Source of the DNA: Microlunatus sp. Gsoil 973
Lineage (GTDB): Bacteria; Actinomycetota; Actinomycetes; Propionibacteriales; Propionibacteriaceae
NCBI RefSeq assembly: GCF_009707365.1
Contig: NZ_CP046122.1
Location: forward strand, 2,170,001 to 2,234,000
Length of the DNA stretch: 64,000 nt
Reading direction: 5' to 3'
Shown here: piece after piece, positions 2,622 to 35,050 of the stretch
Layout of the letters: every line of letters starts with the position of its first letter
Numbering within the stretch: the stretch's first letter is position 1
Program-made: the position numbers and the translations under genes
The notes under the pieces: generated by a model
Databases searched by the model: none
What the model was told of the DNA's origin: nothing
Seen by the model: only the letters and a program-made list of their open reading frames with translations

Positions 2622-3445
2622 TGAACACAGCAACCGCTCCCGAAGAACAACGCGCGGCCACGGACGAACGCCCGGTCCTCGAGGCGTCCGGGCTGGTCAA
2701 GCTGTTCGGCCGGGTGGTCGGCCTCCGCGGGGTCGACCTGCGCCTGTATCCCGGTGAGGTGTTGGCCGTGATCGGCGACAACGGTGCCGGCAAGTCCACC
2801 TTGATCAAGTGCCTGTCCGGTGCCCTGCAGCCGGACCAGGGAACGATCATGATCGACGGTCGCCCGGCGCGTTTCAGCAGCCCCCAGGATGCGCGCGCGG
2901 CAGGGATCGAGACCGTCTACCAGAACCTCGCCGTGGCGCCGGCTCTCGACGTGACCAGCAACCTGTTCCTGGCGCGGGAGATCCGCCGTCCGGGGGTGTT
3001 GGGTTCGGTGTTCCGGATGGTCGATCGCCGGGCGATGCGCGAGCACGCCCAGCAGTTCATCTCCGAACTCGGCATCACCACCCTGCAGAACATCGACCAG
3101 GCGGTCGAGACGCTGTCCGGTGGTCAGCGCCAGGTCGTTGCGGTGGCGCGGGCGGCCGCCTTCGGCAGCAAGGTGGTCATCCTGGACGAACCGACCGCCG
3201 CGCTCGGCGTCCGGGAGACGGGTCAGGTGCTGAAACTGGTCCGGGACCTGCGGGACCGTGGGCTGGCCGTGATCCTGATCAGTCACAACATGCCGAATGT
3301 CTTCGAAACCGCCGACCGGATCCACATCCAGCGCCTCGGCGGCGTCGCCGGCGTCATCACCCCGCAGAGCCACAGCATGGAGGAGGCGGTTGCGATCATG
3401 ACCGGTGCGCGGACCCTCGAGCCCGACGAACAGACCCTCCGCTGA
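2621..3445 (+). CDS. Sugar ABC transporter ATP-binding protein
   Basis: A 274-residue single-domain ATPase that powers the importer. Visible are Walker A GDNGAGKS (about residue 53), the Q-loop region YQNLAVAP, signature LSGGQRQ, Walker B VVILDEPTA and H-loop ISHN. CUT2 ATPases such as RbsA usually have two fused domains (about 500 residues). This is the short FrcA-like form with one complete domain, so it would act as a homodimer. The start at 2621 overlaps the permease stop; the frame is open further upstream, but the short intergenic arrangement favours this ATG. It is followed after 10 bp by a stress-protein gene on the same strand. Confidence 0.92.
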   Translation: MNTATAPEEQRAATDERPVLEASGLVKLFGRVVGLRGVDLRLYPGEVLAVIGDNGAGKSTLIKCLSGALQPDQGTIMIDGRPARFSSPQDARAAGIETVYQNLAVAPALDVTSNLFLAREIRRPGVLGSVFRMVDRRAMREHAQQFISELGITTLQNIDQAVETLSGGQRQVVAVARAAAFGSKVVILDEPTAALGVRETGQVLKLVRDLRDRGLAVILISHNMPNVFETADRIHIQRLGGVAGVITPQSHSMEEAVAIMTGARTLEPDEQTLR

Positions 3446-3455
3446 CGGGAAGCAG

Positions 3456-3863
3456 ATGATCATCATCGTCGGCTACATCCCCAGTCCGGAAGGTTCGGCC
3501 GCCTTCGAACAAGCCCGCGAACTGGCGCGCGGCGGGCACGATCTGGTGGTGATCAACACCGGTCACCACGGGAACAACGCTCATCCGAACTTCGCCTCGG
3601 CGCAGGATCTCGATGCCGTCGACGCGGAACTCACTGAGGCGGGGATCAACCACGAGATCCGCCAGCCCGCCGGGCGGACATCGGCCGCCGAAGTGATCCT
3701 CGCGGCAGCCGACGAGCTCGACGCCGGCCTGATCGTCATCGGGCTGCGTCGCCGCAGCCCGGTGGGAAAGATCATCTCCGGCAGTACGGCCCAGGCGATC
3801 CTGGTCGACGCCCGCTGCCCTGTGCTGTCGGTCAAACCTGGGCAAGCCGTCCTCAAGCCGTAG
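3456..3863 (+). CDS. Universal stress protein family protein
   Basis: A 135-residue UspA-fold protein, starting MIIIVGYIPSPEGSAAF. It carries the family C-terminal nucleotide-binding pattern in degenerate form (GLRRRSPVGKIISGSTAQAI, like G-x2-G-x9-G-S/T). It is the last gene of the transporter operon, 10 bp after the ATPase, with a GACGGGAAG purine stretch before the ATG at 3456. Such proteins bind ATP or AMP and modulate stress responses. Its presence in a sugar-import operon suggests a link between substrate uptake and physiology, but no partner can be named. An upstream in-frame start at 3405 would overlap the ATPase by 41 bp and is less likely. Confidence 0.85.
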   Translation: MIIIVGYIPSPEGSAAFEQARELARGGHDLVVINTGHHGNNAHPNFASAQDLDAVDAELTEAGINHEIRQPAGRTSAAEVILAAADELDAGLIVIGLRRRSPVGKIISGSTAQAILVDARCPVLSVKPGQAVLKP

Positions 3864-3928
3864 CCCGCCGCCGGCATGCCGTGGCCATGGCCGAGGCTGC
3901 CTGATGCCGGATCTCGGGACCCCGGCGG

Positions 3929-3934
3929 TAGGTT
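3929..3934 (+). promoter_or_regulatory. -10 box of a leaderless promoter
   Basis: TAGGTT matches the actinobacterial TANNNT -10 element and ends 6 nt before the ATG at 3941, so the transcript would begin at or next to the start codon. This supports 3941 over the in-frame start at 3935. Confidence 0.5.
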
Positions 3935-3940
3935 GTGATC

Positions 3941-4816
3941 ATGGAATACACGACGCTCGGTGGCACCGGTGCCACCGTCAGTCGGCTTGGCTTCGGCGGT
4001 GCGACGCTCGGATTGGCCAACTACGTCGAGGAATTCGACCCCGCCGACGCCGCGACCCATGCGCGGTCGGTATCGGCCATCGAGACCGCGTTGGACGCCG
4101 GTGTGAACTATTTCGACACCGCCCCCGGCTACGGCGCCGGGATCAGCGAGCGGGTCTTCGGCGAGGCGCTCCAGGGTGTGACCACCGTCGGTGATCACCG
4201 GCTGTTCGTCGCCACCAAGGTGTCACCCCAGACGGCCCCCGATGATCTTCGGGTATCGTTGGAGAGCAGCCTGGAGCGGCTCCGGCGTGACCGGATCGAG
4301 TTGCTGCAGCTGCACGGATCGTCCTACAGCACCGAGGACGTCGACCGGCTGCTGCGCCCGGGCGGCCTGGTCGAGCAGTTGGTCGCGGCCCGCGACGAGG
4401 GGCTGATCGGGGCGGTCGGATTCACCTCGGAGGACACCAACGACGGCGTCTACCGGCTGATCCGCAGCGGTGCGTTCGACGCCGTGCAGCTGTGCTACAA
4501 CCTGATCTACCAGCATCCCTACGATCCGTCCCGACCGTACGGGTCGATGATCGTTGCCGAAGACCGCGGGCTGGGCATCATCACCATGCGGACCTCGACA
4601 TCGGGCATCTTCCAGCGTTGGGTGCAGGCGGTCAACCCGAACAACACCTTCGACTACACGCCCGCACTGATCCAATTCGTGCTGTCCAATCCCCTGGTCG
4701 ACGTCGCACTGGTCGGGATGCGCACACCTGACGAGGTCCGGGCGAACGTCGCACTGGTGAACGACAGATCCGGCCGAATCGATCTCGGCCGGATGCACGA
4801 ACGCTACGTCCGCTGA
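3941..4816 (+). CDS. Aldo/keto reductase (sugar dehydrogenase-like)
   Basis: A 291-residue TIM-barrel NAD(P)-dependent oxidoreductase. It begins MEYTTLGGTGATVSRLGFGG, typical of the D-threo-aldose/L-fucose/galactose dehydrogenase branch. The catalytic tetrad is recognisable: Asp and Tyr in NYFDTAPGYG (about residues 50-60), Lys in VATKVS and His in LLQLHGSS. It follows the sugar-transporter operon, and its stop codon abuts that of the convergent dehydratase with no spacer (4816/4817). Together they suggest oxidation of an imported sugar to a lactone or aldonate and then dehydration. The substrate assignment is inference. Confidence 0.88.
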   Translation: MEYTTLGGTGATVSRLGFGGATLGLANYVEEFDPADAATHARSVSAIETALDAGVNYFDTAPGYGAGISERVFGEALQGVTTVGDHRLFVATKVSPQTAPDDLRVSLESSLERLRRDRIELLQLHGSSYSTEDVDRLLRPGGLVEQLVAARDEGLIGAVGFTSEDTNDGVYRLIRSGAFDAVQLCYNLIYQHPYDPSRPYGSMIVAEDRGLGIITMRTSTSGIFQRWVQAVNPNNTFDYTPALIQFVLSNPLVDVALVGMRTPDEVRANVALVNDRSGRIDLGRMHERYVR

Positions 4817-29649: not shown

Positions 29650-30579
29650 TCAGAGCACCGGGCGGCAGACCCGGAGTGCGGCCGGCACCTGTTCTATCGC
29701 CAGTGGCGTTGCGCCGATCATCTCGCCGTCGCCGAAGCCGACCAGACCGGGCCCGTCGATGGTGATCGACCGCACGCGCAGCAGTTCGACACAGGGATCG
29801 CTGATGAAGCCACCGGTGTAGAGCAGCGGCATCAGCCGCAGCAGCGTCGGCCGCCCGACCGGGTGGATGATCGTCAGCTCGAGCAGCCCGTCGGTGGGAT
29901 CGGCGTCCGGGCAGATCCGGATGCCGCCGCCGTAGGAGCGGGTGTTACCGACGGCGACCAGCATGGCGTCCAGATCACGTCGTACGCCGTCGATGGTGAG
30001 TTGGTAGTGCAGCGGTTCGAAGGTCCGCAGCACAGCGAACAGCGCCAGCGGATAGCGGGACGAGCCCTTCGGCCACCGCATGTCGTTGGCGCGCCGGTTG
30101 ACCATCGCATCGAATCCGGTGGCGATGATCGTCCCGATGTACGCCTCGCCGACCCGCGCCAGATCGACTGCGGTCTCGGTGCCGGCCAGGATGATCTCCA
30201 GCGCGGCCAGCGGGTCGGTGCCGATGTCCAGGCCGCGGCACAGGTCGTTGCCGGTACCGGACGGGATCAATCCGAGGACCGGGGCCGTCGGCGCGGACTG
30301 CTGGGCGCGTACGGCCTCATTGACTCCCAGGTGCAACATGCCGTCGCCGCCCATCACGACCATCACGTCGGCGCCGGAGTTTGCTGCCTTGTTGATCAGC
30401 GCCTGGGCTTCGTCGAAATCCCGGCTGAGCCAGATGTCCAGTTCGTGTCCGGCGTCGCGGATCCGACCGGCGATCTCGGGAAGCATCTCCTGGGAACGGC
30501 CCTTGCCCGCGGATGGGTTGACCACCAGGGCGATGCTCGACGGAGGCCGCCGGGTGACAGCAACCTCAGGACTGCTCAT
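29650..30579 (-). CDS. Diacylglycerol kinase family lipid kinase
   Basis: A 309-residue DAGK-catalytic-domain protein that would phosphorylate diacylglycerol or a related lipid. Motifs are LVVNPSAGKGRS near the N-terminus, VVMGGDGMLHLGVNEAV (about residue 80) and GLIPSGTGNDLCRGLD (about residue 105), then a C-terminal beta-sandwich. The usual GGDGT reads GGDGM here, a change at a conserved threonine. The start ATG overlaps the tatC 3' end by 14 bp, so the gene is co-transcribed with tatA-tatC. Confidence 0.9.
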   Translation of the reverse strand: MSSPEVAVTRRPPSSIALVVNPSAGKGRSQEMLPEIAGRIRDAGHELDIWLSRDFDEAQALINKAANSGADVMVVMGGDGMLHLGVNEAVRAQQSAPTAPVLGLIPSGTGNDLCRGLDIGTDPLAALEIILAGTETAVDLARVGEAYIGTIIATGFDAMVNRRANDMRWPKGSSRYPLALFAVLRTFEPLHYQLTIDGVRRDLDAMLVAVGNTRSYGGGIRICPDADPTDGLLELTIIHPVGRPTLLRLMPLLYTGGFISDPCVELLRVRSITIDGPGLVGFGDGEMIGATPLAIEQVPAALRVCRPVL

Positions 30580-31546
30580 CGTCCTTCTTGCTCAGTCCGA
30601 GCAGGTCGGCGACCGTCGGCCGGGCGACCGACTGTTCGGCGTCAAGATCACGGCCCTCGAGCGCCGCCAGAGCGCGGTCGTTCTCGACGCCGCCGCCCCG
30701 ATTGCCGAAGCCCGGCTCGATACCCCGACGATGCAGCGACCGATCGTGCAGGTGCGCGATGACCTCTGCCGCGAGGTACAGGATCGTCATCGGACCGGCC
30801 AGCATGAGCATCGACACCGGGTCGGTCTGCGGCGTCGCGACGGCGCCGAAGACGAAGCATCCGAAGACGACGAACGACCTGGCCTTGGCCAACTGTTTGG
30901 CCTTGACGATGCCCATGAAGTTCAGGCCGAGGACGAAGACCGGTACCAGGAAGCCGGCGCCGAAGACCAGCATGACCCTGATCAGGAAGTTCAGGAAGTT
31001 GGTCAGATCGAGCAGGTTCTCGATCTGCCCGCTACCCGGCGTGAAGCCGATCAGGACCGAGATGCCCTTGGGGATCAGGTAGTAGCCGAGGACGACTCCG
31101 CCAAGGAACAGCGGCACCGCGGCGCTCAGGAAGATCAGCGCCCACTTCTTCTCCTTGGCCAGCAGGCCGGGGACGATGAACGCCCAGATCTGATACAGCC
31201 AGATCGGTGAGGTCCCGACGAGCGCCGCGACGAAGCACGTCTTGAGGACCAGCGTGAAGGGCGTGGTCGCGCCCTCGATCACCGGCTGGACGTGCAGCTC
31301 CGGATTGGTTCGGTGGAGGTTCTCGGCGGCGACGGTGTACGGGTGCATCAGCAGGTCGTACAACTGCGTGTTGAAGATGAACGCGACGACGGTGCCGACG
31401 ATGATCGCCAAAGCGATGATCACCAGCCGGTAGCGCAATTCCCGCAGATGCTCCCAGAGGGTCATGTTGCCGTCTGACGGCATCGGCGGCGGTTTCAGCC
31501 ATGCCAGGCTGAACCGGATCGGTCGTCCTCGGAGACTGAGTGCCAC
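30566..31546 (-). CDS. tatC: Sec-independent protein translocase TatC
   Basis: A 326-residue six-helix membrane protein that recognises twin-arginine signals and forms the Tat core with TatA. Family marks include TLWEHLRELRYRLVIIALAI and the periplasmic/loop segment FYQIW-like WLYQIWAFIVPGLLAKEKKW. A glycine/hydrophobic C-terminal half precedes a hydrophilic tail of about 60 residues. Start: GTG 31546 gives the N-terminus ALSLRGRPIRFSLAWLKPPP seen in related actinobacteria; ATG 31483 is the alternative. It follows tatA by 52 bp. The binding protein at 9956 is a plausible Tat substrate. Confidence 0.94.
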   Translation of the reverse strand: MALSLRGRPIRFSLAWLKPPPMPSDGNMTLWEHLRELRYRLVIIALAIIVGTVVAFIFNTQLYDLLMHPYTVAAENLHRTNPELHVQPVIEGATTPFTLVLKTCFVAALVGTSPIWLYQIWAFIVPGLLAKEKKWALIFLSAAVPLFLGGVVLGYYLIPKGISVLIGFTPGSGQIENLLDLTNFLNFLIRVMLVFGAGFLVPVFVLGLNFMGIVKAKQLAKARSFVVFGCFVFGAVATPQTDPVSMLMLAGPMTILYLAAEVIAHLHDRSLHRRGIEPGFGNRGGGVENDRALAALEGRDLDAEQSVARPTVADLLGLSKKDDEQS

Positions 31547-31598: not shown

Positions 31599-31910
31599 TC
31601 AGTTGTCGCGACGGGCTTCAGACGGCTGTGCTGCCGAATTGGTCGGCTGCTGGACCTGCTGCTGCGGGCCGCCCACCGCCGGCGGGGTCTGCTCGGTCGG
31701 CTGGGGATCGACCACCTCGGCGTCGACGACCTCGGAATCGTCCTTCTTGTCGGCGAGGTTCTTGGTCTCTTCCTTGAACTCCCGGATGGCGCGACCGGTG
31801 CTCTTGCCCAGTCCTGCCAGTCGGGCACCACCGAAGAGCACAAGGACGATGACAAGGATGATGATGAGCTCGGTGGGACCGAGGTTCATGAATCCGGCCA
31901 ACGGGGACAT
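31599..31910 (-). CDS. tatA: Sec-independent protein translocase TatA
   Basis: A 103-residue single-span protein: a short N-terminus, the hydrophobic segment LIIILVIVLVLFGGARL, the hinge GLGKSTGRAIREFKEE amphipathic helix and an acidic, Gln/Pro-rich tail. It polymerises to form the Tat pore. The ATG at 31910 follows GAGGA by 6 nt; ATG 31922 and 31889 are in-frame alternatives. No tatB is present here. Confidence 0.93.
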   Translation of the reverse strand: MSPLAGFMNLGPTELIIILVIVLVLFGGARLAGLGKSTGRAIREFKEETKNLADKKDDSEVVDAEVVDPQPTEQTPPAVGGPQQQVQQPTNSAAQPSEARRDN

Positions 31911-31979
31911 AAGGTTCCTCATTTCGCTGTGGAGCAGTTGCGTCCTGCCGCCGCATCGGTGCGACGGCTGCAACTCACG

Positions 31980-32237
31980 TCATCCTACGTCGTCGGTCGC
32001 TGCTTCGAGGTTACGCAGGGTTGCATTCTTATCAGGATCTGCGACGCGCTCTGGGCCGGTTCCCAGCTCGGGCACCTGTACCTGGGCGGCGAGCTCGGCG
32101 AGCTTTCCGGTGCGCTGACCGAGCACCCGCAACTCGGCGAACACGTCCGAGGCCTTGTGGGCCAGCCAGATCGCGTACGCCACCAGCATGATGAGTCCGG
32201 CAACGGCGATGCCGCCGAACACGAAGACCCAGATCAC
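31980..32237 (-). CDS. Small single-span membrane protein
   Basis: An 85-residue protein starting at GTG with one N-terminal membrane helix (VFVFGGIAVAGLIMLVAYAI) followed by a helical, charged region (ASDVFAELRVLGQRTGKLAE) that could form a coiled coil. It sits between pafC and tatA, on the same strand, directly downstream of the tandem array. Unrecognised; the position is compatible with a Tat- or envelope-associated accessory protein, which is inference. Confidence 0.65.
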   Translation of the reverse strand: MIWVFVFGGIAVAGLIMLVAYAIWLAHKASDVFAELRVLGQRTGKLAELAAQVQVPELGTGPERVADPDKNATLRNLEAATDDVG

Positions 32238-32277
32238 GGGCGCCAGCGTACGTCACGGGCTCCTACCGCGTCAGCTC
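32238..32277. other. Short spacer before the tandem array
   Basis: Forty bases between the small membrane-protein start and the first GCACC-containing unit. No gene or promoter recognised; any promoter for the membrane protein and tatA would have to lie here or within the array. Confidence 0.3.
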
Positions 32278-32718
32278 CCGCACCGTTTGCTCGTTGACCC
32301 GCACCACTGCCCGGCTCAGGCGCTCGGTGCCGCACCAATCACTCGCTCCCGCACCGCTTGCCCGGCCCCGGCACCGCTTGCCCGGCCCCAGCACCGCTTG
32401 CCCGGCCCCGTCCCGCACCACTTACTCGTTCCCGCACCACTTACTCGTTCCGCTTGCCCGGCCCCGGCACTGCTTGCCCGGCCCCTGCCCCGCTTGCCCG
32501 GACCCGGCACTGCTTGCCCGGCCCCTGCCCCGCTTGCCCGGACCCGGCACCGCTTGCCCGGCCCCTGCCCCGCTTGCCCGGCCCCGGCACCGCTTGCCCG
32601 GCCCCGTCCCGCACTACTTACTCGTTCCCGCACCACTTACCCGGCTTCTTCGCCTCCGTCCCGCACCGTTTGCTCGTTGACGCACCAGCAACTCGGTCGC
32701 GCACCACCTGCAGCCGGT
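32278..32718. repeat. Left tandem array of degenerate about 19-20-bp units
   Basis: About 21 units share the core GCACC(A/G)CTTRCYCG. Two adjacent copies of CCCGCACCACTTACTCGTT (32412-32430, 32431-32449) are identical. A 40-bp higher-order pair unit is repeated three times (32465-32504, 32505-32544 identical, 32545-32584 with two changes). The plus strand is extremely C-rich, so the minus strand, which is the sense strand of the flanking genes, has regularly spaced GGGG/GGG runs able to form G-quadruplexes. Open frames across it on both strands are compositional and not counted as genes. Confidence 0.9.
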
Positions 32719-32832
32719 GCGAGGCCGAGTAACTGGTGCGACGCCGAGCAACCGGTGCGGCGCCGAGCAGCCGGTGCGAGGCCGAGTAAGTGGTGCGGCG
32801 CCGAGTAACTGGTGCGGCGCCGGGCAACTGGT
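32719..32832. repeat. Right tandem array, six 19-bp units, inverted relative to the left array
   Basis: Six exact-length units follow the pattern GCGRSGCCGRGYARSYGGT, starting at 32719, 32738, 32757, 32776, 32795 and 32814. Unit 4 contains GAGTAAGTGGTGCGG, the reverse complement of CCGCACCACTTACTC in the left array, so the arrays face each other. The dyad centre is GCACC-(10 bp with CTGCAG)-GGTGC at 32701-32720. It ends 46 bp before the pafC stop codon. A transcript of either strand could fold into very long hairpins. Confidence 0.9.
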
Positions 32833-32878
32833 GCGGGAGGGGAAAGCCGGCGGCGACGGGCGGGGGTTCCGCGCAGGG

Positions 32879-33892
32879 TCAGCCGGCGAGGGCGGCGTAC
32901 TGGTCGAGTGCCTCGGAGGCCGCGTCGGCGGCGGAATCCCCGGCGCCCTCCGGCGAGAGCACCCGCGCCCCACCGCCCAGCCGCAGCAGCAGGCTGCGCA
33001 GCCAGGCCGGATCGCTGACCCGCGTGGTCACCGTGAGGCCGCCGTCATCGGCAGCGGTGACCGACTCCATCGGGTAGTACTCGGCGACCCAGACGGCGCT
33101 GCGGTCCAGCGCCAGGGTGACCAGCGGTGCGTCCTTCAGTGCGTCGAACCAGCCCTTGCTGACGTCCCGGAGCTGGACGTCGTGGTCGACCACATCGGTG
33201 TCGGTGATGGTGATGGTGGCGATCCGGTCCATCCGGAACGACCGCAGACCGTTTGCCGAGTAGCACCAGGCGTCGAGATAGCCGTATCCCTCCAGTACGA
33301 AGACTCGCAGCGGATCGACGAACCGGTGGGTAGTCTCGGCCCGACTGGCCACGTCGTAGGTCAGCTCGAGCCGCTTGCCCCGCCGCAGCGCCTCGGTCAC
33401 CGTTGCCCGAATGTCCTCCCGGCCACCGGTCACCGCCACCTCCGCCTGACCGGCGACCCGGTCCGGCTGCTCCCCGGCGACGGCCTCGAGTTTGGTCAGC
33501 GCGCGGTCGATCGCGTCCCGTTCCCCCGTCGCCGTCACGCCGCGCAGAGTCCGCAACGCCAGGATCAGGGCCAGCGCCTCGTCGGCGGTCAGGCGCAGCG
33601 GCCGGGTCAGATAGTCGGCGTTCGACAGGTGGATGATGCCTTCGCCGTCCACTGCATCCATGTCGATGTCGATCAGGTCACCAGGGCTGAGCCCGGGCAG
33701 CCCGCACATCCACAACACGTTCAGGTCCTCGCGGATCCGTTGCGGCGGCACTCCGAACGCCTCGGCGACGTCGGTGATCGCGACGCCGTCGTGCTGGCGC
33801 AGGTACGGGATCAGGCTCAGCAACCGCTTCACCTGCGCCTGCGCGGTCTGACCGGCGGTCGACCGCTTCTCGTTCTTCGGTGAGTCGCTCAT
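32879..33892 (-). CDS. pafC: PafC, WYL-domain transcriptional regulator
   Basis: A 337-residue partner of PafB. The N-terminal helix-turn-helix (LIPYLRQHDGVAITDVAEAF, then VPPQRIREDLNVLWMCGLPG) is followed by the WYL domain (KRLELTYDVASRAETTHRFV, VLEGYGYLDAWCYSANGLRS) and the WCX tail. PafB and PafC activate DNA-damage genes in mycobacteria independently of LexA. The start ATG overlaps the pafB stop by 4 bp. Downstream genes follow only after the 555-bp array. Confidence 0.92.
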   Translation of the reverse strand: MSDSPKNEKRSTAGQTAQAQVKRLLSLIPYLRQHDGVAITDVAEAFGVPPQRIREDLNVLWMCGLPGLSPGDLIDIDMDAVDGEGIIHLSNADYLTRPLRLTADEALALILALRTLRGVTATGERDAIDRALTKLEAVAGEQPDRVAGQAEVAVTGGREDIRATVTEALRRGKRLELTYDVASRAETTHRFVDPLRVFVLEGYGYLDAWCYSANGLRSFRMDRIATITITDTDVVDHDVQLRDVSKGWFDALKDAPLVTLALDRSAVWVAEYYPMESVTAADDGGLTVTTRVSDPAWLRSLLLRLGGGARVLSPEGAGDSAADAASEALDQYAALAG

Positions 33893-34929
33893 AGAACGAC
33901 CTCCTCGACGCTGTCGGTGTCCAGGACAGCACCGACCGCCGCATAGCGGCGAGGAGTCGACCGGGTCGCCGCGACGGACCGCAACTGGTTGATCACCGCA
34001 GTCCGCAGGTCGGATGGCTCGAGCACCACGGCGTCGGCCGCGTAACCGGCGACCTCTTCACAGAGATAGCCGGCATCGGCATAGCCGACTTCGACGACGT
34101 CGAAGCCAACCGGCCAGGCGTACGCCAACCGGTCGAGGCGCTCCGGGGCGAGCGGACGGCCGCGACGGCGCAACCCGGGTGCCCGGCCCGGCCGGATCGC
34201 GATGACTGCGCTGGCCCGCGGTTCCTCCGGCGCCAGCGACCTGGCCAGTGCACGCAGGTCGAGATCGGTGGGGACCTCGTACGCGCCGTCCTTGGACACC
34301 CGTTTGGGCGTGTCGAGGATCCGCGACAGCTTGAACATCCGGGTCGCGTTCCTGTCGGTGTCGTGGCCGATCACATACCAGCGACCCTTGTTGGAGGTCA
34401 GGCCCCAGGGTTCGAGCGTCCGGGTGGCGCCACCGCGGTAGGTGAACGAGACCCGGGAGCGGTCCAGTACGGCGTGCCAGAGCGGCTCGAAGGCCGGTTC
34501 GTTGGCCGAGACGTTCGGCTCCAGCGCCGCCAGCCGGGAGGCGTCGGGTTCGATGCCTGCGGCCCGGAGCTTGGCCAACGCGCTGCGGGTGGAATCCGCG
34601 ACCGCGGTGTGCTGCCAGGACCTGGCCGCCACACCCACCACGGCCGCCTCCTCGGCATCAAGTTCGATGGACGGCAGCTCGAACGCCGACCGCTCGATCC
34701 GGTAGCCCGGTTCGTCGTCGAAGAGCGGATCGAAGGAGCCGACCTGCAGCGGAATGCCGAGCTTGCGCAACTCCTCCTTGTCCCGTTCGAAGGTCCGCTC
34801 GAACGCCTGGTCGGACAGGTCGTGATAGCCCTCGACGATCTCGCGGATCCGGCTCTTGGGCAGGAAGTTCCGCGTGACCAGCAGGCAGATCGTCAGGTTG
34901 AGGATCCGCTCCGTCTTGCGAGGAGCCAT
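33889..34929 (-). CDS. pafB: PafB, WYL-domain transcriptional regulator
   Basis: A 346-residue regulator. The HTH region includes KTERILNLTICLLVTRNFLP and the wing FERTFERDKEELRKLGIPLQ. The WYL domain includes RVSFTYRGGATRTLEPWGLT, then WYVIGHDTDRNATRMFKLSR. The C-terminal WCX region follows. The ATG at 34929 has AGGAG 11 nt upstream; a -10 candidate TAGCGT is at 34966-34971. Here pafA is not adjacent, unlike in mycobacteria; the divergent neighbour is the GluQRS gene. Confidence 0.92.
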   Translation of the reverse strand: MAPRKTERILNLTICLLVTRNFLPKSRIREIVEGYHDLSDQAFERTFERDKEELRKLGIPLQVGSFDPLFDDEPGYRIERSAFELPSIELDAEEAAVVGVAARSWQHTAVADSTRSALAKLRAAGIEPDASRLAALEPNVSANEPAFEPLWHAVLDRSRVSFTYRGGATRTLEPWGLTSNKGRWYVIGHDTDRNATRMFKLSRILDTPKRVSKDGAYEVPTDLDLRALARSLAPEEPRASAVIAIRPGRAPGLRRRGRPLAPERLDRLAYAWPVGFDVVEVGYADAGYLCEEVAGYAADAVVLEPSDLRTAVINQLRSVAATRSTPRRYAAVGAVLDTDSVEEVVL

Positions 34930-35050
34930 GAGGTGGCAATCTCCTAGAAGTCCGGGCAACTGTGGACGCTACCATCACACAACCGTTCGATTATGCGCCG
35001 CGCCGGGCATTTTCCCAAGCGCCGCCCGGCCGCCTGTACGGTGTGCCACT
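34930..35050. promoter_or_regulatory. Divergent promoter region of pafB and gluQRS
   Basis: A 121-bp gap holding TAGCGT for the leftward pafB transcript (34966-34971, a 36-nt leader with AGGAG) and TACGGT for the rightward gene (35037-35042), 8 nt before its GTG start. It marks the junction of the paf-tat block and the accessory block. Confidence 0.45.

Follow-up and report, generated by a model that had tools for sequence, protein, structure and literature searches.

A head-to-head tandem array between pafC and tatA of Microlunatus is one overgrown member of a dispersed family of inverted elements

Results

Structure of the pafC-tatA array

The window is the whole 64,000-nucleotide stretch of the Microlunatus sp. 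Gsoil 973 genome analysed here, and coordinates refer to it unless stated otherwise. Pfam searches identified, all on the minus strand, a pafB-like gene (33889–34959), whose WYL and WCX domains are those expected of PafB, pafC itself (32879–33892; HTH_PafC, WYL and WCX), tatA (31599–31910) and tatC (30566–31483). This gene context bears out the claim of an earlier note on this DNA that a repeat array interrupts the pafBC-tatAC block. The array (32278–32836) sits in a 641-bp gap, its right arm about 43 bp from the pafC stop codon. Downstream of it, the first open reading frame before tatA is an 85-aa frame on the minus strand (31980–32237), which has a hydrophobic N-terminus and no Pfam match. 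Similar reading frames come after pafC in several relatives.

Sequence inspection and a unit scan of the window confirmed that the array is real. The left arm (32278–32700, plus strand) is made of about 20 tandem units carrying the box GCACC, the first at 32280 and the last at 32682; 18 units satisfied the unit criterion, and two or three degenerate ones added by eye bring the total to about 20–21. Steps are mostly 19–20 bp, part of the arm advancing by 20 bp rather than 19. Within this arm a 40-bp higher-order unit, consisting of two 20-bp units, is present three times (32467–32586, plus strand), as the note had said; the copies at 32467 and 32507 are identical, but the one at 32547 has two differences. 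The dyad centre placed at 32701–32720 proved to be a 20-bp core with no strand of its own, of the form GCACC-N3-TGCA-N3-GGTGC and here reading GCACC-ACC-TGCA-GCC-GGTGC. Beyond it, the right arm (32721–32836, minus strand) contains six units whose box reads GGTGC on the plus strand (GCACC on the minus strand), in exact 19-bp steps from 32735 to 32830, the final box ending at 32834. Thus the unit numbers in the note, about 21 facing six, and the inversion between the arms stand, but the right-hand units are exact only in spacing and not in their letters (for example, GAGGCCGAGTAACTGGTGC and GACGCCGAGCAACCGGTGC). The absence of CRISPR-like spacers was also correctly observed: successive units are contiguous and change direction at the core, and a CRISPR array is excluded.

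A search of the window for GAGYAASYGGTGCG, allowing up to two mismatches, gave 27 matches, 19 within the array and 8 elsewhere; the mean in 100 shuffles was 4.5 and the maximum 10. An assembly artefact is very unlikely as the origin of the array, since the genome is a single contig, other array loci repeat this design with units of their own, and relatives carry the family.

The pafC gene is 89% identical to its counterpart in M. endophyticus. The pafC-tatA gap of that species (about 69 bp) is without the element, as are those of relatives G006 (about 110 bp) and G011. The copy between pafC and tatA was therefore probably gained. Other short repeats were seen in the pafC-tatA gaps of relatives G006, G011, G003 and G017 (loci L033, L034, L047 and L049 respectively): an unrelated 21-bp unit present twice in G006, an unrelated unit of about 16 bp present three times in G011, and in both G003 and G017 an unrelated repeat containing a CTTTTCGTC stretch.

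A dispersed family in the Microlunatus genome

The genome (G000; 4.91 Mb, one contig) was searched together with those of relatives, among them M. endophyticus (G012); other G numbers denote further relatives. The unit pattern had 184 and 141 matches on the two strands of G000, compared with 15 and 14 for a reversed control. The other 19 of the 20 genus genomes gave 1–21 matches per strand, about control level, and in a 196-genome draw from the order every other genome gave at most 33 per strand. The search of genome and relatives suggested in the earlier note located the family in G000 and kin elements in related species, and the idea of an expanding genomic repeat family was supported, the pafC-tatA array being one of dozens.

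The exact core GCACC-N3-TGCA-N3-GGTGC is present at 75 places in G000; the reversed-pattern control gave none. Core statistics rest on the 64 of these 75 that were listed. Of those, 62, spread over 39 loci, belong to the array type and the remaining two are single-copy; array-type DNA amounts to about 9.0 kb in the portion counted. Allowing up to two mismatches per box, an arm of at least two units flanks 61 of the 62 array-type cores, and one of at least three units flanks 53. Several loci contain two or three successive head-to-head elements. One locus (L148, positions 3560–4600; G000:C1:3138060–3139100) has degenerate cores within a higher-order repeat of about 195–245 bp, present four times. 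A search with positions 32640–32850 in distant mode found no match in phages or plasmids.

Two subfamilies can be told apart. Subfamily A consists of unextended single-copy elements with the core GTGTAC, GTACAC or GTGCAC, of which 19 were fetched. Subfamily B is the array type, whose arms run to as many as 11 units in strict phase; distances between consecutive CGCACC boxes were 19 bp in 334 cases, 38 bp in 42 and 20 bp in six, each other listed value occurring at most four times. Units of the same arm share 10.8–11.0 of 14 free bases, compared with 8.9 for units of different loci and 8.25 for opposite arms of one core. Units are thus alike within an arm and unlike across the core, indicating that growth is local and that each arm expands on its own. 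In relative G002, extra 20-bp units were found in five of 16 elements in a walk that allowed one box mismatch, and are plain in two. In the pafC-tatA array, a non-coding element that is dispersed in several Microlunatus species has expanded locally.

The basic element and its spacing in related species

In relatives the basic element is mostly single-copy and has the form GCACC-N14-GCACC-N10-GGTGC-N14-GGTGC. This layout, box-box-core-box-box with inverted halves, is common to subfamily A and to elements of six related species. With up to two mismatches the 19-bp form was found 99 times in G000, 44 in G011, 32 in G006 and 15 in M. endophyticus, and in further genomes 11 times each in G003 and G238, nine each in G010 and G383, seven in G284 and five in G018; controls gave 0–1 matches. 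At least one match was present in 67 of 391 genomes of the order, many of the single matches looking like chance. A search with 20-bp spacing, which had been intended as a negative control, yielded 59 elements in G019 and 16 in G002, one each in G003, G004 and G010, and none in G000, G006, G011 or M. endophyticus. The 19-bp form is absent from G019 and occurs once in G002. The existence of 19-bp and 20-bp spacings, one dominant in each species, suggests a putative reader protein. Among 394 genomes of the class, a related pattern with up to one mismatch was found at most twice per genome outside the order, and controls behaved alike.

Loci chosen by the core alone had an exact GCACC at offset 19 in most of their arms: 37 of 40 in G006, 15 of 22 in M. 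endophyticus and 13 of 14 in G011, and in G000 all 34 of subfamily A and 92 of 124 of subfamily B. At other offsets between 10 and 30 bp it was seen at most once each. The box is CGCACC throughout the seven sets of elements compared, and the majority base four bases further is T. Bases upstream of the outer boxes match the inner boxes of their own set best in five of the seven sets; in G011 and G019 they fit another set slightly better, and the margin for subfamily A of G000 is small. A set-specific box flank may be regarded as a tendency only.

Two further groups of elements were noticed. Genomes G100, G192 and G341, of the same order and another family, contain extended palindromes whose outer box is GCGCC or close to it and whose inner box is GCACC, again spaced by 19 bp; these are possibly distant kin. 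G006 carries a second subfamily (L262–L270) with different arms and a centre that is mostly CGAAATTTCG; eight of its nine places are closed elements, and L267 is irregular.

Conservation of boxes and of arm pairing

The two arms of one G006 locus share 11.2 of 14 bases, compared with 8.7 for arms of other loci (p = 5e-5). The within-locus match was also seen in the other 19-bp single-copy elements, in G011 (p = 0.003), in M. endophyticus (p = 0.045) and in subfamily A of G000 (p = 0.025; n = 19, one degenerate array element being left out). In an alignment of 19 G006 elements, 17 of 32 pairs had changes on both sides, and the covariation score was reached by none of 500 shuffles. Arm covariation was not detected in the first two units of subfamily B arrays (p = 0.92 and 0.95) or in the 20-bp species G019 (p = 0.97, on 34 of its 59 elements) and G002 (p = 0.31). 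In the core, complementarity even lay below that of random pairs, both for subfamily B (p = 0.995) and for G002 (p = 0.997).

Adjacent units of arrays were compared in 289 pairs, which are not independent of one another. Their differences are distributed non-uniformly over unit positions 6–19 (chi-square p = 7.5e-48): the rate is 3% at C19 and 10–12% at C13 and G14, and reaches 36–46% at the most variable positions. The commonest change is a C/G swap (400 of 1229). Plain mutation would hardly produce this pattern together with the excess of C/G swaps. The search itself accounts for part of the box conservation, as loci were found via boxes or cores and unit walks required a box within one or two mismatches.

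The features common to all sets are the box and its phase. Both persist where arm pairing is undetected, as in arrays and 20-bp species, which favours the view that the boxes are read in duplex form. Palindrome correction by template switching could keep arms paired without selection.

Gain and genomic position of the elements

Fetched element loci were compared by blastn, which aligned 14 between-species pairs. Two positions are apparently shared, G006 L201 with M. endophyticus L182 and G006 L171 with M. endophyticus L189; the aligned pair G000 L160 and M. endophyticus L186 is ambiguous in position. Clear absences were found as well: G000 is empty where G006 carries L180 and L172. The L180 copy (3056–3113) seemingly lies inside a coding gene, and is missing from the G000 counterpart (L127). 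Flanks of empty sites were also compared for a target-site duplication; they are too diverged, and none was established.

Genes neighbouring the elements were called with a simple codon-bias caller rather than taken from curated annotation, and the position counts omit three element regions called inside genes and one without both neighbours. In G006, M. endophyticus and G011, 19 of 20 codirectional elements lie closer to the stop codon of the upstream gene (p = 4e-5), at a median of 28–30 bp past it. In G000 alone the stop-side bias (15/23 and 7/12) was not significant, and the corresponding figures are 13/18 in G019 (p = 0.10) and 5/9 in G002. Pooling five sets gives the stop-side position for 41 of 55 codirectional elements (p = 0.0004), and convergent positions outnumber divergent ones by 27 to 11 (p = 0.014). 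A preference for 3′ ends therefore exists, though it is not universal. The stop-side bias would arise just as well if selection removed insertions close to promoters.

RNA and G-quadruplex potential

The RNA fold proposed in the earlier note gave structures stronger than those of shuffled sequences, with z = –7.4 for the whole array (20 shuffles) and z = –4.4 for core plus right arm (200 shuffles), as is expected of inverted repeats. In codirectional elements G-U outnumbered A-C on the transcript strand by 47 to 29 (p = 0.05). TTTT was found within 25 nt after the element in none of 109 approaches from a neighbouring gene, which excludes an intrinsic terminator with a U run. Together with the lack of detected arm covariation within array loci, this argues against the suggested transcription attenuator or hairpin as a property of the whole family. 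Arm pairing is kept in 19-bp single-copy elements, and there a hairpin role may still be considered. Rfam searches of positions 31900–33000 returned three microRNA models, all far below the gathering score. Three G-quadruplex motifs do lie on the minus strand at the pafC-tatA array, but only four of 38 other array loci hold one, and G-quadruplex formation, also raised in the note, was dropped as a family trait.

Discussion

We give about an even chance (probability roughly 0.5) to the reading that the array is an overgrown copy of a family of phased binding sites, whose boxes would be read by a putative DNA-binding protein. One sequence-specific protein would bind each of the boxes and would need at least two phased sites to either side of the dyad; its specificity and spacing would have drifted between species. 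The repeated boxes could then provoke slippage, or unequal duplication one unit at a time, and so add sites. At the present locus the element lies between pafBC and the tatAC block, where the most likely effect of bound protein would be that of a local roadblock or DNA-organising site. Among the options offered in the earlier note, that of a multi-site protein-binding array fits the sequences best, the protein being putative. Some observations count against it. The palindrome itself is maintained in 19-bp single-copy elements, which a pure box model would not require; and phase is not strict at this very locus, the left arm running partly in 20-bp steps.

The strongest rival is a miniature mobile element acted on by a putative enzyme: two inverted half-ends, each with two transposase-like boxes, would have spread in trans, and arrays would be slippage by-products of old copies. 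Empty sites and the scarcity of clearly shared positions, two among the fetched loci, are consistent with this, as are the distinct subfamilies within one genome, the G006 copy seemingly within a gene and missing from G000, and the likeness of box pairs to multi-site transposon ends. We nevertheless consider it unlikely. The G006 half-site pattern has 44 matches, of which 30 are paired 39 bp apart, four are in fetched elements and ten are further ones (nine closed and the irregular L267); all but one thus lie in short closed elements, and a larger element bounded by such ends was not seen in G006. Y1 transposase, the one family searched, was found in none of the 20 genus genomes. A mobile gene near the elements was rejected: the 25 largest protein clusters of 96 fetched loci contained no recurrent one, and those recognised, by eye, were common families only (short-chain dehydrogenases, LacI-type regulators and transporters). 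Nor would dead copies be expected to show the constraint seen among resident tandem units.

An RNA element at 3′ ends is more doubtful still. In this view the upstream gene's transcript would form a long hairpin, which would terminate or protect the mRNA and insulate the operon that follows. The stop-side position in the three 19-bp sister species and over five sets, the excess of convergent neighbours, the arm covariation in G006, G011 and M. endophyticus and the G-U excess all point this way, but the last could reflect mutation bias and the stop-side position the removal of promoter-near insertions. The absence of TTTT, a stop bias that is non-significant in G000 and weaker in G019 and G002, and covariation undetected in arrays and in these two 20-bp species argue against it, and a hairpin would not require exact box spacing. 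Neutral slippage, in which direct repeats of an old palindrome expand and contract without function, seems improbable, despite the likeness of units within arms, the duplication of a whole array in L148 and the G002 elements with extra units of their own 20-bp length. It leaves the non-uniform variation between adjacent units and the surplus of C/G swaps unexplained, as well as a common layout despite unrelated arm sequences and one dominant spacing per species.

If boxes are indeed read by a protein as we propose, the evolution of a binder that has as many as a hundred or so sites in the chromosome would be traceable between species, and the strict geometry means that the reader protein could be sought directly.

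Comparison with known systems

No earlier description of the array family was found in the titles and abstracts of the open-licence literature searched, and likenesses to several known systems were considered. Transposon ends of the Mu, Tn7 and Tn5053 type contain several phased transposase-binding repeats of about 19–22 bp in inverted halves; the halves of the present element are only about 29 bp and are joined, and no enzyme or cargo was seen. Bacterial VNTR and MIRU loci are intergenic tandem arrays whose units are locally similar, as here, but the element has a dyad core and two opposed arms, and the same grammar recurs with other sequences in relatives. MITEs, among which the account of PMC2817692 names Correia and RUP, are likewise small dispersed inverted-repeat elements that are absent at corresponding places in relatives. 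The present element differs in having almost no interior, and a parent transposon was not seen among G006 half-sites of one pattern.

The closest parallel is with REP and BIME sequences, and the manner of life may be similar. REPs are described as short palindromic intergenic high-copy repeats found in inverted arrangements, in which complementary changes keep the palindrome (PMC2817692), and high copy number, short palindromic intergenic form, inverted arrangement and pairing by complementary changes are shared. Membership fails, since no Y1 transposase was found in the genus and there is no conserved head motif. The Y1 search (PF01797), positive in five of 14 control genomes and in none of the 20 genus genomes, led to the rejection of a RAYT/IS200 driver for the genus. 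In the sample treated in PMC6006769, Actinobacteridae carry only subclass 1.1 (TnpA of IS200), and the sampled actinobacteria are without RAYT transposases, the known REP driver. A conserved GT(A/G)G head (GTAG/GTGG) was not found in the consensuses of the seven sets, that of G006 having GTAA inside the arm. The family differs from REPs further in its four boxes at 19 or 20 bp and in arms that expand as head-to-head tandem arrays. Tentatively, and with less confidence than for the reading of the array given above, we suggest that several Microlunatus species, and apparently some other Propionibacteriaceae, carry chromosome-wide phased inverted sites that are REP-like and RAYT-independent, with a putative protein reader, a box flank and a 19- or 20-bp spacing that would diverge along with the species, and arrays grown by slippage. 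This would be an actinobacterial family comparable to REP, with a strict geometry, two versions of its spacing in one genus and an expanded form.
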